A stretch of 64,000 nucleotides of DNA from Candidatus Rokuibacteriota bacterium (lineage in GTDB: Bacteria; Methylomirabilota; Methylomirabilia; Rokubacteriales; CSP1-6): NCBI GenBank assembly GCA_003220495.1, contig QHSP01000022.1:62001-126000 (forward strand). The letters are read 5' to 3'. The notes under the pieces were generated by a model, which had not been told where the DNA came from, made no database searches, and was given only the letters and a program-made list of their open reading frames with translations. Shown in pieces: positions 18,557-26,196 of the stretch (positions are counted from its first letter, which is position 1; the number at the start of each line of letters is the position of its first letter). A program made the position numbers and the translations under genes.

Positions 18557-19825
18557 ATGGCGCTCTTCGTCGCGGGCCTCTCGCACCGGAACGCTCCGGT
18601 CGAGCTGCGCGAGCAGCTGGCCGTCGACGAGGACAAGCTGCGCGAGCTGCTGGGCGACATCGCCGCCGCGGGCGTCGTCCGCGAGGCGATCATCCTCTCG
18701 ACCTGCAACCGGGTCGAGGTGTACGCGGTGGCCGACGTGCCCGGCGAGGCGCGCGCCACGACGTTCCGCCAGCTCTGCCGCCACCGCGGCGTGGAGCCGG
18801 CCTCGGTGGAAGCGGTCCTCTACACCTACGCCGAGGGGGACGCGGTGCGCCACGCGTTCCGCGTCGCGTCGAGCCTCGATTCGATGGTGATCGGCGAGCC
18901 GCAGATCCTCGGCCAGGTGAAGGACGCCTTCGCGCTCGCCCAATCGTGCGAGGCGGTCGGCCCCGCGCTCCACTCGCTGTTCACGCAAGCGTTCGCGGTC
19001 GCGAAGAAGGTCCGGACCGAGACGGAGATCGCGCGGCACGCGGTGTCGGTCTCGTTCGCCGCGGTCGAGCTGGCCAAGAAGATCTTCGGCGGGCTCGAGG
19101 GCAAGGCCGTCCTCCTGGTCGGCGCGGGCAAGATGAGCGAGCTCGCCGCCCGCCACCTCGTCGAGCAGGGCGTGTTCCCGGTCTACGTCACCAACCGGAC
19201 GTGGGCGCGCGCCCAGGAGATGGCGCGCGCGCTCTCGGGCACCGCCGTGCCCTTCGACGAGCTCTCGACCGCGCTCGCCGCGGTGGACATCGTCATCACG
19301 TCCACGGCTGCGCCCGAGCCGGTGATCCGGCGCGAGATGGTCCAGCGCGTCATGCACGGGCGACGCGGACGCGCGCTGTTCTTCATCGACATCGCCGTCC
19401 CGCGCGACGTGGAAGGCGCCGTCGACTCGCTCGACGGCGTGTACTGCTACGACATCGACGACCTGAAGCAGGTCGTCGACGCGAACATCCGCGAGCGAGT
19501 CCGCGAAGCGCACCGCGCCGAGGCGCTGATCGACCGCGAGGTCGCGAAGTTCCTGGCGAAGCAGGGCGACGTCGAGGTGATCCCCACCATCGTGTCGCTC
19601 CGGGAGCGGCTCGAGGCGATTCGAACCGGCGAGGTCAAGCGGACGCTCGCGCGGCTTCCCGGGGCGACACCCGAGACGCGCGAGGCGATCGAGGCCCTGT
19701 CGACGGCGATCGTGAACAAGATCCTGCACGCGCCGATCACCAAGCTCCGGGAATCGTCCCGCGCCGGCTCGCCCCGGTCGTGGCTCGAGCTCGTCCACGA
19801 GCTCTTCGGTTTGACACGACGATGA
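18557..19825 (+). CDS. hemA: Glutamyl-tRNA reductase
   Basis: This 422-residue NADPH enzyme reduces Glu-tRNA to glutamate-1-semialdehyde, the first step of C5 heme synthesis. GLSHRNAPVELRE is at residues 6-18 and the catalytic Cys50 is in STCNRVEVY. GEPQILGQVKDAF is the conserved helix. LVGAGKMSELAARHL is the NADPH motif. A helical dimerisation region forms the C-terminus. HemL, which finishes the conversion to 5-aminolevulinate, is encoded at 24919. Confidence 0.97.
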   Translation: MALFVAGLSHRNAPVELREQLAVDEDKLRELLGDIAAAGVVREAIILSTCNRVEVYAVADVPGEARATTFRQLCRHRGVEPASVEAVLYTYAEGDAVRHAFRVASSLDSMVIGEPQILGQVKDAFALAQSCEAVGPALHSLFTQAFAVAKKVRTETEIARHAVSVSFAAVELAKKIFGGLEGKAVLLVGAGKMSELAARHLVEQGVFPVYVTNRTWARAQEMARALSGTAVPFDELSTALAAVDIVITSTAAPEPVIRREMVQRVMHGRRGRALFFIDIAVPRDVEGAVDSLDGVYCYDIDDLKQVVDANIRERVREAHRAEALIDREVAKFLAKQGDVEVIPTIVSLRERLEAIRTGEVKRTLARLPGATPETREAIEALSTAIVNKILHAPITKLRESSRAGSPRSWLELVHELFGLTRR

Positions 19826-19858: not shown

Positions 19859-19933
19859 GGGCGTGTCGGAGCCGGCTCGCGTCTATCTCAGGCCACCCTC
19901 GGTCCAAGGCATGCTCATGGCCCCCGCTACAAT
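19859..19933 (+). repeat. 75-bp dispersed intra-operon repeat, family 1, copy at hemC
   Basis: It begins GGGCGTGTCGGAGCC, contains CTCAGGCCACCCTCGGTCC and ends CCCCGCTACAAT. It matches 31820-31893 and 40000-40073 along its length. It lies between hemA and hemC and overlaps the hemC start codon (ATG at 19917 or 19911), so it supplies the translation start of hemC. TTGACA at 19811, just upstream, lacks a good -10 partner. Confidence 0.75.
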
Positions 19934-20846
19934 AACCATCAAGATCGGAACGCGCGGAAGCCCGCTCGCGCTGATGCAGGCCGAGAGCGTCGCCGCGCCG
20001 TTGCGCGCGCTGGGCAGCGACGTCGCGATCGTGCCGGTACGGACCGAGGGCGACCGGCGTCTCGAGGTCCAGCTGGCGACGATCGGCGGCAAGGGGCTCT
20101 TCGTGCGCGAGATCGAGGAGATGCTCCTCGCCGGCGCGCTCGACTGCGCCGTGCACAGCCTCAAGGATCTCCCGGCCGAGACGCCGGCGGGCCTCGCGCT
20201 CGCGGCGTTCCCCGAGCGCGAAGATCCGCGCGACGTCCTCGTGACGCGTGAGGCCCGCCGGTTCGAGGACCTGCGCCCGGGGGCGCGCCTCGGCACCGCC
20301 AGCCCGCGCCGGCGCGCGCTCGCGCTGGCGCTGCGCGCGGATCTCGTCGTCGAGCCGATCCGCGGCAACGTGGGCACCCGGCTCGGCAAGCTCGAGAGCG
20401 AGGGGCTGGACGGCGTCCTGCTCGCGGCGGCCGGGCTCAAGCGGCTCGGCGTGGCGCCGAGGCACGTGCAGGCGCTCGATCCAGACGCGTTCGTGCCGGC
20501 CGTTGGCCAAGGAGTCCTGGCCGTCGAGACTCGAGCCGACGATCGGCGCGTGCTGGCCGTCCTGAGCCGACTCGATCACGCCGCGACGCGCGCGTGCGCG
20601 CTGGCCGAGCGCGCGTGCCTCGGTCGTCTGGGTGCGTCGTGCAGCTCGCCGGTGGCCGCCCACGCCGTCCTGGACGGCACGAGGCTCCGGATGACCGCGC
20701 TCGTCGCGAGCGACGATGGGCGCAAGGTTCTCCGCGCTACCGCCTCCGGCGCCGCCGACGACGCGGAGCGCCTGGGCCGGCGAGCCGCCGAATCGCTGCT
20801 CGAACAAGGCGCAGCCACGGTGGCGCCGCTCAGGCCGGTGATCTGA
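19917..20846 (+). CDS. hemC: Hydroxymethylbilane synthase (porphobilinogen deaminase)
   Basis: This 309-residue enzyme polymerises four porphobilinogens. [16 protein letters not shown] is the N-terminus. [27 protein letters not shown] holds the catalytic Asp region. [12 protein letters not shown] and the dipyrromethane-cofactor Cys in [11 protein letters not shown] (near residue 241) are present. ATG 19917 gives a family-like start; ATG 19911 and a GTG at 19863 lie farther up inside the dispersed repeat. The stop overlaps hemD (TGATG). Confidence 0.96.
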
Positions 20847-21688
20847 TGGGGCGAGTCGGTCGCGCGACCGTGGAGCGGCCCCTCGAGGGGCGGACGATCG
20901 TCGTCACCCGCGCGCGCGCCCAGGCGCAGCGATTCGTCGAGATCCTGGAGGCCGCGGGCGCGCGCGTGCTGCAGGCGCCGACGATCGTGATCGAGCCGCC
21001 GGCGTCGTGGGAGCCGCTCGACACGGCCATCGCCGCGCTCGAGTCGTTCGCGTGGGTGATCTTCACGAGCGTGAACGGCGTGGCCATGGTGGACCGGCGT
21101 CTGGCGGCGCGGGGCACCCCGTGGACGGCGATCGCCCGCAAGCGGGTGGCGGCGATCGGGCCGGCGACGGCGGACGCGCTCGCCGAGCACGGCGTCCGGC
21201 CCGAGGTCGTCCCGTCCGAGTACCGCGCCGAGGCGCTGGTCGACCGGCTTCGCACCGTCGTCGGGCCGGGAGACCGGGTGCTGCTGCCGAGGGCGAAGGA
21301 GACGCGCGACGTGCTGGTCGTCGAGCTCCGCCGGCTCGGCGCGGCCGTGACCGAGGTGCCGGCGTACCAGACCCGGCGCATCGACGACGGGGTCGTCCGT
21401 CTGCGCGAGGCGCTCGCGTCGGGCGCCGTCGACGCCGTCACGTTCACGAGCTCGTCCACCGCCCGGAATTTCGCCGAGCAGTTCAGCGACGAGGAGCGGA
21501 GCGCCTGGCGCGGGCGCATCACCGTCGCCTCCATCGGCCCGATCACGGCGGCGACGGCCGCCGAATACGGCCTGTCGACCGATGTCATGCCGAGCGAGTA
21601 CACGATCCCCGCGCTCGCGCGGGCGCTCGCCGATTACTTCGCCCGTGCCGCCTGGAATGCCGGCCGCCGACCCAGAAGGAGCGTGTGA
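20846..21688 (+). CDS. hemD: Uroporphyrinogen-III synthase
   Basis: This 280-residue protein closes and inverts ring D of hydroxymethylbilane. The family is weakly conserved. Visible features are [15 protein letters not shown] at the start, [27 protein letters not shown], and a second half with [17 protein letters not shown] and [18 protein letters not shown]. These form the two alpha/beta lobes expected. It is translationally coupled both to hemC (TGATG) and to hemB (TGATG). Confidence 0.93.
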
Positions 21689-22674
21689 TGGCCCCTGCGA
21701 TGTTCCGTCCGAGACGTCTGCGCGAGAAACCGCTGCTGCGCAAGCTGATCCGTGAGACCGCGCTGGCGGTCGACGATCTCATCTATCCGCTCTTCATCGT
21801 CCACGGCCGCGGCGTTCGGGAGCCGATCGGCTCGATGCCCGGCCAGTTTCGCCTCTCCATCGACGAGATGGTGAAGGACATGAAGGACATCGCGAGCATG
21901 GGGATCCCGGGCGTCCTCCTGTTCGGGCTCCCGGTCGAGAAGGATCCGCGCGGCTCGGAGGCGTACGCCGAGGATGGCATCGTGCAGCAGGCGGTGCGGG
22001 CGGTGAAGGACGTGGTGCCCGACCTGCTGGTCGCCACCGACGTGTGCCTCTGTCAGTACACGAGCCACGGACACTGCGGCGTCGTCGAGGGCGGCACCGT
22101 ACGCAACGACCCGACGCTCGAGCTGCTGGCGCGCGTCGCGGTCTCGCACGCGGACGCCGGCGCGGACATGATCGCGCCCTCGGACATGATGGATGGCCGG
22201 GTCGGCGCGATCCGCGAGGCGCTCGACGAGGCGAGCTTCACCGACACGCCGATCATGGCCTACTCGGCGAAGTACGCCTCGAGCTTCTACGGCCCCTTCC
22301 GGGACGCCGCGGACTCGGCGCCGCAATTCGGCGACCGGCGGTCGTATCAGATGGATCCGGCGAACTCCGCCGAGGCCATGCGCGAGATCGCGCTCGACCT
22401 CGACGAGGGCGCGGACATCGTCATGGTCAAGCCGGCGCTGCCGTACCTGGACATCATCTCTCGGGCGAAGGCGGAGTTCGGCGTGCCGCTGGCCGCCTAT
22501 TCGGTCTCGGGCGAGTACGCGATGATCCGGGCCGCGGGCCGCCTGGGCTGGCTCGACGAGGAGCGCGCGATGATGGAGGCGCTCACGGCCATCCGTCGCG
22601 CGGGCGCCGACGTGGTGATCACCTACTTCGCCCGCGACGCCGCGCGTCTTCTCGAGCGTGGCGGTGTGAGCTGA
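21688..22674 (+). CDS. hemB: Delta-aminolevulinic acid dehydratase (porphobilinogen synthase)
   Basis: This 328-residue enzyme condenses two 5-aminolevulinates. [19 protein letters not shown] is a typical N-terminus. The cysteine-rich zinc site is complete in [14 protein letters not shown] (Cys near residues 120, 122 and 130), so this is a zinc-type rather than magnesium-only enzyme. Schiff-base lysines are in [14 protein letters not shown] (about 195) and [10 protein letters not shown] (about 247). AAGGAG precedes the overlapping start. Confidence 0.97.
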
Positions 22675-22737: not shown

Positions 22738-23178
22738 GTGCGTATCTCAGCGAAGGGCGAGTATGCGATCCAGGCGGTGCTGGACCTGTCGCTCCACCGG
22801 GAGCGCGGCCTCACCGCCATTCAGGAGATCGCGCGGCGGCAGGCGATCCCGCAGCGCTATCTCGAGCAGGTGTTGCTCGCGCTGAAGCGCGCCGGTCTGT
22901 TGACGTCCAAGCGAGGGTCAGCGGGCGGCTACCAGCTCACCCGGCCGCCGGAGGACATCACGGTGGGGGACGTTCTGAGAGCGGTGGAGGGGACCGCCGC
23001 GCCCTTCGAGGCGCAGCGCCGCGGTGGCCGGGGCACGGGCGAGCGCCACGATCTGTCCGAGCTCTGGGACGAGATCTCGAACGCGGTCTCGAAGGTGGTC
23101 GATCAGCTCACCTTCGGCGATCTTGCCGTCCGGGCGCTCGCGCGCCGGAGCGCCGCGCGTCCGATGTACCACATATGA
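22738..23178 (+). CDS. Rrf2 family transcriptional regulator (CymR-like, no cysteines)
   Basis: This 146-residue protein begins MRISAKGEYAIQAVLDLSLH. It has the Rrf2 winged helix (IPQRYLEQVLLALKRAGLLTSKRGSAGGYQL) and DITVGDVLRAVEG. It contains no cysteine at all, so it cannot bind an Fe-S cluster in the way IscR or NsrR do. This fits the CymR/CysR branch, which controls sulfur and cysteine genes, often with cysteine synthase as partner. Its stop overlaps the start of a cysteine synthase gene (ATGA), supporting that role. The start is GTG, with GAGG upstream. Confidence 0.9.
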   Translation: MRISAKGEYAIQAVLDLSLHRERGLTAIQEIARRQAIPQRYLEQVLLALKRAGLLTSKRGSAGGYQLTRPPEDITVGDVLRAVEGTAAPFEAQRRGGRGTGERHDLSELWDEISNAVSKVVDQLTFGDLAVRALARRSAARPMYHI

Positions 23179-24098
23179 CCGCGCCGCCAAAGATCGCGAA
23201 GTCGGTGCTCGAGCTGGTCGGCCGGACTCCGATGGTCCGGCTGAACCGCCTGCCCAAGCCGGGCGGCGCGGTGGTCGCGGCTAAGGTCGAGTCGCTCAAT
23301 CCCGGGGGAAGCGTCAAGGACCGCATCGCCGTCGCCATGCTCGAGGACGCCGAGCGGCGCGGCGTGCTCAAGCCCGGCGCGACGATCGTCGAGCCGACCA
23401 GCGGCAATACCGGCATCGGGCTCGCGATGGCGGCCGCGGTGCGCGGCTACCGGCTGATCCTGACGATGCCCGATGACATGAGCGTCGAGCGCCAGCGCCT
23501 GCTGGCGCGGTTCGGCGCCGAGCTCCATCTGACGCCCGCCATCGAAGGCATGACGGGCGCGGTCCACGCCGCGCGCGAGCTGCTCCGCGAGCACCCCGAC
23601 TACTTCATGCCGCAGCAGTTCGAGAACCCGGCGAATCCGGAGGCGCACCGGCGCACGACGGCGCTCGAGGTCCTCGACGCGGTCGACGGCCGGCTCGACG
23701 CCTTCGTGGTCGGCGTCGGGACCGGCGGGACCCTCACGGGAGTCGGCGAGGTCCTCAAGGAGAAGATCCCGGCGGTCCGCATCGTCGCCGTCGAGCCCGC
23801 GGCGTCGCCCGTGCTCGCGGGCGGCAAGGCGCGGCCCCACGCGATCCAGGGCATCGGCGCCTCGTTCGTCCCCGGCGTTCTCAATCGCGCGATCATCGAT
23901 CGGATCATCCAGGTGCGCGACGAGGACGCGCTCGCGTGGTCGCGACGGCTCGCGCGCGAGGAAGGGCTCCTGGTCGGTGTCTCGGCCGGCGCCGCCGCGT
24001 TCGCCGCGTGCCTGGTCGCCGCGGAGATGACACCGAGCCAGCTGGTCGTCACGGTCCTCCCGGATACCGGCGAGCGGTACCTCAGTCCCGGAGGCTAG
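23175..24098 (+). CDS. Cysteine synthase (PLP-dependent, CysK/CysM family)
   Basis: This 307-residue fold-type II PLP enzyme has its Schiff-base Lys48 in [24 protein letters not shown] is the substrate loop. [16 protein letters not shown] binds the PLP phosphate. [13 protein letters not shown] is typical of O-acetylserine sulfhydrylases. Whether it takes free sulfide or a protein thiocarboxylate, and O-acetylserine or O-phosphoserine, cannot be decided by eye. The gene next to it encodes a CysO-like carrier, so carrier-borne sulfur is plausible. I leave the symbol open between cysK and cysM. Confidence 0.93.
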
Positions 24099-24100
24099 AC

Positions 24101-24919
24101 ATGGCCGTGACGGTTTACATCCCGACGTCGTTTCGTCGGGCCACCGACAATCGCGATCGGATCCAGCTCGCCGCGAACGACGTGAGCCGGCTGCTCGATC
24201 AGCTCGAGGCCTCGTACGGCGGCCTGAAGGGGCTGGTGCGCGACGAGGGCGGCGAGGTGCATCACCACGTGAGCATCTACGTGAACAGCGAGGCGATCGA
24301 GTCCCTCCAGGGGCTTCGCACGCCTCTCAAGGACGGAGACGAGGTCGCGATCATCCCGGCGCTGGCCGGCGGGGCACGCACCATCGTCACGGCCGAGGAG
24401 CTCGAGGCGATCCGCCGGCAAGCCGTCGAGGAGTACCCGCGCGAGTCGTGCGGGGTCATTCTCGAGCAGGGCCAGCTGCGCCGGCTCGTCCGGTGCCGGA
24501 ACATCCAGGACGAGCTTCACGCCAAGGATCCACAGCGCCATCCGCGAGACGCGCGGACGGCCTACTTCATCGACCCCAAGGATCTTCTCCGCATCGGACG
24601 GCTCGAGGGCGAAGGGTACGAAATCGCCGTGATCTATCACTCCCATGTCGACGCCGGCGCCTATTTCTCGCCGACCGATCGTCAGCAGGCGCAGATCGGC
24701 GGCGAGCCGACGTACCCGGCGGCGACCTACCTGGTGACGTCCGTCATGGCGGGACGCGCCGAGGCGGTCGCCGCGTTTCGGTGGAACGCATCCGAGCGGG
24801 ACTTCGTGCCGGTCGCGCTCGACGCCGATCGCTGGCACTGGCACGAACGACTCTCGTTCGCGGCGGGCCGGATCTGGGAGCGGCTGGGCATCGGCGCGCT
24901 GCTCGGCCGGAGCTCCTGA
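24101..24919 (+). CDS. Fusion of CysO/MoaD-like sulfur carrier and JAMM (Mec+-type) protease
   Basis: This 272-residue protein has two domains. Residues 1-91 form a ubiquitin-like sulfur carrier resembling CysO/MoaD, with [30 protein letters not shown] and the di-glycine at 90-91. Residues 95-240 form an MPN/JAMM metalloprotease with Glu115 (ESCGV), His180, His182, Ser190 and Asp193 in HSH-x7-SPTD, a complete JAMM motif. In Mycobacterium CysO and Mec+ are separate: CysO carries sulfur as a C-terminal thiocarboxylate, CysM attaches it, and Mec+ clips off cysteine. Here carrier and protease are one chain directly after a cysteine synthase. GGAGG precedes the ATG. Confidence 0.9.
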
Positions 24920-26196
24920 TGCGCGACTCGAAGAGCCTCTTCGAAGCCGCCTCTCGCCTGATCCCCGGCGGCGTCAACAGCCCGGTCCGCGCCTTCCGCG
25001 GCGTCGGCGGCGAGCCGTTCTTCGTCGCGCGCGGTGAGGGCGCGCGGCTCTGGGACGTCGACGGCCGATCGTATCTCGACTTCCTCGGCTCGTGGGGACC
25101 GCTCATCCTCGGCCACGCCGCGCCATCGGTCGTCGCGGCCGTCACCGAGGCGGCGGCGCGCGGCACGAGCTACGGCGCGCCCACCGGGCTCGAGGTCGAG
25201 ATGGCCGAGGCGATCACCGCGGCCTATCCCTCGATCGAGCTCGTGCGGCTCGTCAGCTCGGGAACCGAGGCGGCGATGAGCGCGATCCGGCTCGCGCGCG
25301 GCGCGACCGGCCGATCCATCTTGCTGAAGTTCGACGGCTGCTACCACGGTCACGCCGACAGCCTGCTGGTGAAGGCCGGCTCCGGAGGCGCGACGTTCTC
25401 CATCCCCGACAGCGCCGGAGTGCCGGGCCCGCTCGCGCAGCTCACGGTCACCGCGCCGTTCAACGACCTCGACGCGGTCAGGTCGATCTTCCGCGAGCGC
25501 GGCCGCGAGATCGCGGCGGTCATCGTCGAGCCAGTGGCCGGGAACATGGGCGTCGTCCCGCCTCGTCCGGGATTTCTCGAAGGCCTGCGCGAGATCACGC
25601 GAGCTCACGACGCCGTGCTGATCTTCGACGAGGTCATCACCGGGTTCCGCGTCGCGTACGGCGGCGCCCAGGAGCTCTACGGCGTGCGTCCGGACCTCAC
25701 GTGTCTCGGCAAGGTCATCGGCGGCGGACTGCCCGTCGGCGCCTACGGCGGATCGCGACAGCTGATGAGCCACGTCGCGCCGCTCGGCGCCGTCTATCAA
25801 GCCGGCACGCTGTCGGGCAATCCGCTCGCGGTCGCCGCGGGGCTGGCGACCCTGGCGCGGCTGCGCGACCGCGAAGTCTATCGGCGCCTCGATGCGCTGG
25901 GCGCCGAGCTCGAGAGGGGACTGCGCGCCGGCGCCGAGCGCGCGCGCGTCCCGCTGACCGTCAACCGCGTCGGATCGATGCTGACGGGCTTCTTCTGCGA
26001 CGCGGCCGTGACCGACTACGCGTCGGCCAAGCGCTCCGACACCAAGCGCTACGCGCGCTACTTCCACGGGATGCTCGAGCGCGGCGTGTTTCTGGCGCCT
26101 TCGCAATTCGAGGCGGCCTTCGTCTCGCTCGCGCACACGGATGCGGACATCGCGCTCGCGGCCCGGGCCGCGGCCGAGGCGCTGGCCACCGCCTGA
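24919..26196 (+). CDS. hemL: Glutamate-1-semialdehyde 2,1-aminomutase
   Basis: This 425-residue PLP enzyme converts the HemA product to 5-aminolevulinate. [19 protein letters not shown] is the HemL N-terminus. [30 protein letters not shown] and [10 protein letters not shown] are class-III aminotransferase motifs. The PLP lysine is in [16 protein letters not shown] (near residue 264), and TLSGNPLA follows. The ATG overlaps the stop of the sulfur-carrier/protease fusion, so the cysteine genes are cotranslated within the heme operon. Confidence 0.96.

Follow-up and report, generated by a model that had tools for sequence, protein, structure and literature searches.

E1 enzymes require a free glycine carboxylate. 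A capped carrier with a JAMM protease is known from Wolinella, as HcyS-Ala and HcyD. In the mycobacterial CysO-CysM-Mec+ route, CysO is loaded by the E1-rhodanese MoeZR and cysteine is released by Mec+ (PMC3227635, in excerpt). Capped carriers typically need a protease such as QbsD (PMC6006322, part of the text). Linear fusions of MoaD-MoaE and of SAMP1 are also cut by JAMM enzymes, and HvJAMM1 can do without the diglycine of SAMP1, according to the accessible part of PMC8832034. PMC6043591, in excerpt, describes an archaeal JAMM that cleaves a ubiquitin precursor exactly after its GG, and a second JAMM with SAMP precursors as substrates.

One reading frame for carrier and JAMM protease

We analysed a stretch of 64,000 nucleotides, here called the window, which lies on contig C130 of a 5.98 Mb assembly (G000). 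The earlier note on this DNA had described a CysO-like sulfur carrier and a JAMM protease fused in one chain. This was confirmed by two Pfam domains in a single ORF of 272 residues, ThiS at residues 8-91 (E 6.4e-13) and Prok-JAB at residues 99-215 (E 5.4e-16), both above the cut-off. Gly90, Gly91, Glu115, His180, His182, Ser190 and Asp193 all stand where they had been placed, and the JAMM/MPN+ motif E...HxH...S..D is complete (Table 1). The one aligned row without Glu115 is a contig-cut half from G009 that does not extend to it, and the one row without the other four residues is the other half of G009. As had also been noted, the GG is internal in the fused chain. The protein therefore has no free C-terminal GG as encoded, and the window carrier would have such an end only after processing, like capped carriers.

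Table 1. Features of the fused gene and its neighbours, in window coordinates.
Feature	Position	Strand	Evidence or remark
hemA, glutamyl-tRNA reductase	18557..19825	+	PF05201
hemC, porphobilinogen deaminase	19863..20846	+	PF01379
hemD, uroporphyrinogen-III synthase	20594..21688 (whole ORF)	+	PF02602
hemB, ALA dehydratase	21007..22674 (whole ORF)	+	PF00490
Rrf2 regulator without cysteine	22738..23178	+	best equivalog match CymR, below cut-off
Cysteine synthase, CysK type	23175..24098	+	TIGR01139 cysK 427 bits, cut-off 351; TIGR01138 cysM 298 bits, under cut-off 394
Fused carrier-JAMM gene	24101..24919	+	272 aa; in-frame homologues in G015 and G018; dN/dS 0.09-0.10
CysO-type sulfur carrier domain, residues 1-91, ending ALAGG	24101..24373	+	PF02597
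Gly90-Gly91 codons	24368..24373	+	predicted cleavage after 24373; GG in 54/54 readable carriers
Junction, residues 92-97 (ARTIVT)	24374..24391	+	stop/start overlap at the same place in most relatives
JAMM metalloprotease domain, residues 98-240	24392..24820	+	PF14464
Glu115, JAMM motif	24443..24445	+	E in 55/56 aligned rows
His180, His182, Ser190, Asp193, JAMM motif	24638..24679	+	each in 55/56 aligned rows
C-terminal stretch with predicted helix, residues 241-272	24821..24916	+	low confidence, 10-residue blocks pLDDT 56-71
Class-III aminotransferase, called hemL from context	24919..26196	+	PF00202

The best solved sequence relative of the carrier half is Mycobacterium tuberculosis CysO (3dwg_C; fold Z 16.4), a chain that ends at its GG. 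For the second half, the best JAMM structural match is Pyrococcus furiosus JAMM1 with the ubiquitin-like SAMP2 (5lda_A, Z 14.6). An AlphaFold model made with 94 aligned sequences had a mean pLDDT of 89.9 and a pTM of 0.64, so each domain is modelled well but their mutual arrangement is uncertain. The alignment (A1) held 94 of 105 sequences; the JAMM-HemL chains described below, the G042 row and cut pieces were left out.

Comparison of the three fused genes of the window's genus gave a dN/dS of 0.09-0.10 over the whole ORF. By part, the carrier had 0.11-0.17, the JAMM core 0.04-0.06 and the laxer C-terminal tail 0.18-0.31. Purifying selection thus acts on both domains of the fusion. Between its codons 62 and 176, the window ORF has no in-frame ATG, GTG or TTG; CTG codons 88 and 126 are present and were not counted as starts. 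A JAMM domain that includes Glu115 therefore cannot begin at a usual start codon within this range, and a separate JAMM start in the window gene was rejected. In three of the five fused genes of the order (G015, G026 and G050) a separate start is possible, since there is an in-frame GTG close to the junction.

Split, fused and capped carriers in the order

The query was matched in all 60 genomes of the order, 55 of which carry the carrier/JAMM locus. The other five (G031, G033, G035, G058 and G059) gave weaker matches only, which resemble those of second carriers. Carrier and JAMM are separate genes at 48 of the 55 loci and fused in frame at five, in G000, G015, G018, G026 and G050. Two loci are undecided, as the frame of G042 is disrupted inside the carrier and the G047 locus is on two contigs. 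Pfam also matched both domains in the G026 and G050 fusions. The fusion claimed by the earlier note is therefore real but lineage-specific, with two separate genes in 48 of the 55 genomes that have the locus. Since the genomes are related, these counts are not independent events. Among the matches listed in a search of 95 genomes of the phylum, 60 of them from the order, none outside the order spanned both domains.

The split genes lie close together. Thirty-four of the 48 pairs overlap by 4 nt (ATGA or GTGA) and four by 7 nt; seven are separated by gaps of 2-14 nt, and three have no ATG, GTG or TTG start. G015 and G018, of the window's genus, have the same in-frame fusion at 94% and 91% identity with different junction codons. 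Named records at these identities are Candidatus Rokuibacteriota MAGs, and the window's organism most likely belongs to the Rokubacteria group; the two records (L003 and L004) are probably G015 and G018 and were not counted twice. Split pairs occur in this genus too, for example in G014 and G020, and its fused JAMM still begins with IVT, as the split JAMMs do.

On a quick tree of the 55 rows, in which 15 of 52 inner branches were drawn open and G042 was entered as 72 residues, the fusion state requires three changes. The first falls in the window's genus and is backed by three genomes. The other two fall around G026, G027 and G050 and may reflect either two gains or a gain plus a loss, which change counts do not distinguish. 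The junctions of G026 and G050 differ from each other, and each of these fusions rests on one genome. An assembly or sequencing artefact could also produce a joined frame: a short indel is what distinguishes the fusion from the split genes of close relatives, and the disrupted frame of G042 may be such an error. In the window's lineage, however, three genomes share the open frame with different junction codons and a low dN/dS. This refutes an artefact there and makes it hardly credible as the general explanation.

The GG, on whose conservation the earlier note had staked its reading, is kept in 54 of 54 readable carriers, G042 being left out of this count because its frame is disrupted inside the carrier. 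All 54 run past the GG, 48 of them for 1-29 residues, five into the JAMM and one (G047) off its contig. Two of the 48 split carriers end again in GG: G003 has a third Gly, and in G024 repeats of the carrier's own last residues lead up to a final GG. A blocked GG is therefore the rule in the order and not specific to the fusion, since split carriers also continue past it. The residue after the GG is G in 21 carriers, A in 15, R in 15 and another in three. In the five fusions it is A, A, A, R and G; as these are the residues found in the relatives, the would-be cleavage site looks unchanged. Extra residues are not dictated by the 4-nt overlap, because GGA-TGA or GGG-TGA would fit. Among the 34 pairs with this overlap, the last carrier codon is Gly just once (G003, as its third Gly).

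As a control, we looked at 21 more distant carriers at other loci; GG forms the very C-terminus in eight of them but not in 13. They comprise 20 of the 22 highest-listed second carriers (without G054 and G058) and that of G000, and some may adjoin a JAMM. The second carrier of G000, on contig C49, is 46% identical to the window carrier and ends exactly in GG. Running past the GG in 54 of 54 versus 13 of 21 carriers gives a nominal Fisher p of 1.2e-5, or 3.7e-4 if G003 and G024 are scored as uncapped, both values ignoring relatedness. Residues after the GG are thus not peculiar to the carrier/JAMM locus, as 13 of the 21 carriers elsewhere also have them. The carriers of the order are capped carriers, and the fusion has the protease as its cap. 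Residues after the GG together with an adjacent JAMM are found at 48 split and five fused loci of the 55.

Copies of the carrier's own last residues, in repeats like GPALAGG, follow the GG in L085, L096, L102, L108, L109, L114 and L118.

Partner enzymes and the heme operon

The earlier note had found no E1 in the window. That holds, but an E1 exists elsewhere in the genome. A whole-genome ThiF search gave a strong match on contig C76, sub-threshold matching on C99 and nothing on any other contig, that of the window included. The strong match is a rhodanese-ThiF protein (PF00899 and PF00581) at G000:C76:38692-39915, which corresponds to L001 1369-2595 on the minus strand. Read through an in-frame TGA, it is an E1-rhodanese of the kind that partners CysO in the CysO-CysM-Mec+ route. 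The TGA stands at the position of an expected cysteine, which is presumably conserved in the family, and was present in 30 of 30 fetched loci (L130-L159) from the 54 genomes with a match. In codons +4 to +10 after the TGA, the third base is invariant in six of seven, versus 13 of 64 among the other nearby codons with an invariant amino acid. The genome has both SelB and tRNA-Sec. The RNA fold after the TGA showed no excess stability (z 0.30). The rhodanese-E1 is probably a selenocysteine protein throughout the order, from a known selenoprotein family; MoeB selenoproteins were already reported in 2005 (PMC1088965, in excerpt).

Contig C152 carries another ThiS-type gene with residues after its GG, near tRNA-Sec (L127 6062-6159) and selB. 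In six loci from NC10 and Dehalococcoidia (L031, L033, L034, L036, L037 and L046) the carrier is fused to a MoeB-type E1 with the GG internal, and Pfam confirmed ThiS and ThiF in L033 and L037.

A Prok-JAB/JAB search of the window's genome (98.4% complete) found no second JAMM besides the fused one. Cutting by a second JAMM was rejected, as the fused JAMM is the sole detected match to these families in the genome.

The placement of a cysteine synthase and a cysteine-free Rrf2 regulator beside the fusion, within a heme operon, was borne out by the TIGR01139 match and by Pfam matches to the hem genes (Table 1). The true starts of hemD and hemB lie later than 20594 and 21007, because their domains start at residues 113 and 234. 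All 25 of the named loci that we examined (L003-L026 and L044, of 46) have the gene order rrf2, cysteine synthase, carrier, JAMM, hemL. Upstream, hemB is present in 24 of these loci, hemD in 23, and hemA and hemC in 21, the missing hem genes being those of loci ended by contig edges. An Rrf2 gene thus precedes the cysteine synthase in all 25, as the cysteine-free regulator at 22738-23178 does in the window.

Of the mycobacterial route invoked by the earlier note, the carrier, the JAMM and an adjacent synthase are present, but the synthase fits the cysK model, scoring above its cut-off, and stays below the cut-off for cysM. It is the only one of 11 matches in its own genome above the cysKM cut-off. 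The genome also has cysE. These points speak against a full copy of the mycobacterial scheme. Since the synthase is of the cysK type and cysE is present, ordinary chemistry with O-acetylserine and sulfide may suffice.

The ATG of hemL and the stop codon of the JAMM share one A. In nine other genomes (L072, L073, L087, L098, L105, L110, L112, L117 and L122) the JAMM and the downstream HemL form one in-frame fusion, with four changes on the tree; Pfam was checked on L072.

The carrier-JAMM fusion could be a neutral accident of overlapping genes that stays uncut, with the JAMM serving other carriers and the GG-ended carrier on C49 moving the sulfur. Gene merging is common in this operon, as the nine JAMM-HemL fusions and their four changes indicate, and the C49 carrier, at 46% identity, already has the exact GG end. 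However, the carrier half of the fusion is under purifying selection (dN/dS 0.11-0.17) and the GG is kept in three genomes of the window's genus. We therefore regard an accident as unlikely.

Alternatively, the uncut chain may be a JAMM tagged with a ubiquitin-like domain (Ubl), with a scaffolding or regulatory role such as binding of the synthase. A Ubl joined to an inactive JAB is the architecture that we take to be that of Npl4. Chains of Ubl and JAB do exist elsewhere, such as an ancestral architecture with an inactive JAB described in the accessible part of PMC1949818. Yet in the fusion the JAMM motif is complete and the GG is conserved, which makes a mere tag very unlikely.

Proposed release of the carrier and comparison with known systems

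We suggest, with a probability of roughly 0.7, that the fused protein is a precursor. The JAMM would cap its own carrier until it is cut off after Gly91, and the freed carrier would be loaded with sulfur for cysteine synthesis. The earlier note had offered self-release by the JAMM as one of two ways in which an internal GG could work, and it appears to be the likely one. Cleavage after Gly91 by the fused JAMM is the most likely first step because E1 needs a free Gly, because there are precedents among JAMM enzymes and because this is the sole detected JAMM. The cut may occur within one chain (cis) or between chains (trans). It would yield a GG-ended carrier and a JAMM whose N-terminus is longer by a few residues, approximately what the relatives would make from two genes after cap removal.

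For the steps after cleavage, we infer the mycobacterial scheme by analogy. The freed carrier would be adenylated and thiocarboxylated by the rhodanese-E1 of the genome. The loaded carrier would donate its sulfur to the adjoining cysteine synthase, with cysteine as the presumed product, and the same JAMM would hydrolyse the carrier-cysteine adduct, like Mec+. A more specific version is tentative. A self-cut in cis after Gly91 would give equal amounts of carrier and protease and no activation before the protease folds; the blocked end could then be a checkpoint of which the fusion is the end point, reached two or three times. We consider this possible rather than probable.

JAMM-freed capped carriers are known in few systems; here they would be near-universal among members of the order with the locus, and in five genomes the protease itself became the cap. 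These natural split and fused pairs allow testing whether a JAMM processes its own ubiquitin-like partner, in parallel to ubiquitin precursors. In addition, what is likely a sulfur-carrier module for cysteine is found here within a heme operon whose gene order is fixed, and a probable selenoprotein E1 is encoded at another site of the genome. A literature search, with subscription papers mostly outside its reach, gave no cellular sulfur-carrier-JAMM fusion among the matches listed.

The mycobacterial CysO-CysM-Mec+ system resembles the window locus in that CysO is the nearest solved relative of the carrier, a synthase gene is adjacent and an E1-rhodanese is in the genome. In comparison with the available account of that system (PMC3227635), carrier and JAMM are here one chain, and the carrier does not end at its GG as encoded. 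The synthase is of the CysK type, and the E1 lies on another contig with a TGA replacing a cysteine. Iyer et al. 2006 described operon types 4c/4d in which genes for ThiS/MoaD, JAB and cysteine synthase are likewise together. These are separate genes, and the sole Ubl-JAB fusion in the accessible part of that paper is a prophage TAPI protein (PMC1779556, Table 1 row 5).

Carriers with residues after the GG are also known from thioquinolobactin biosynthesis (QbsD) and from PtmS2/PtmS1, where the JAMM gene stands beside the carrier. Unlike in the fusion, the caps in these systems consist of one or two residues, and a separate protein acts as protease (PMC6006322, in excerpt). In-line fusions of a carrier to a partner enzyme with the GG internal, as here, are the MoaD-MoeB fusions of Rokubacteria and NC10, in which the partner is an E1 and not a JAMM (PMC11237513, part of the text). 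Closer in its processing is MoaD-MoaE of Deinococcus, an in-line carrier fusion that is freed by a JAMM, DR0402/DRJAMM, after Gly. In that case the carrier is joined to the enzyme that makes use of it, whereas in the window fusion its partner is the protease itself (PMC8832034, in excerpt). The fusion is thus a new form of the already known pair of capped carrier and JAMM.
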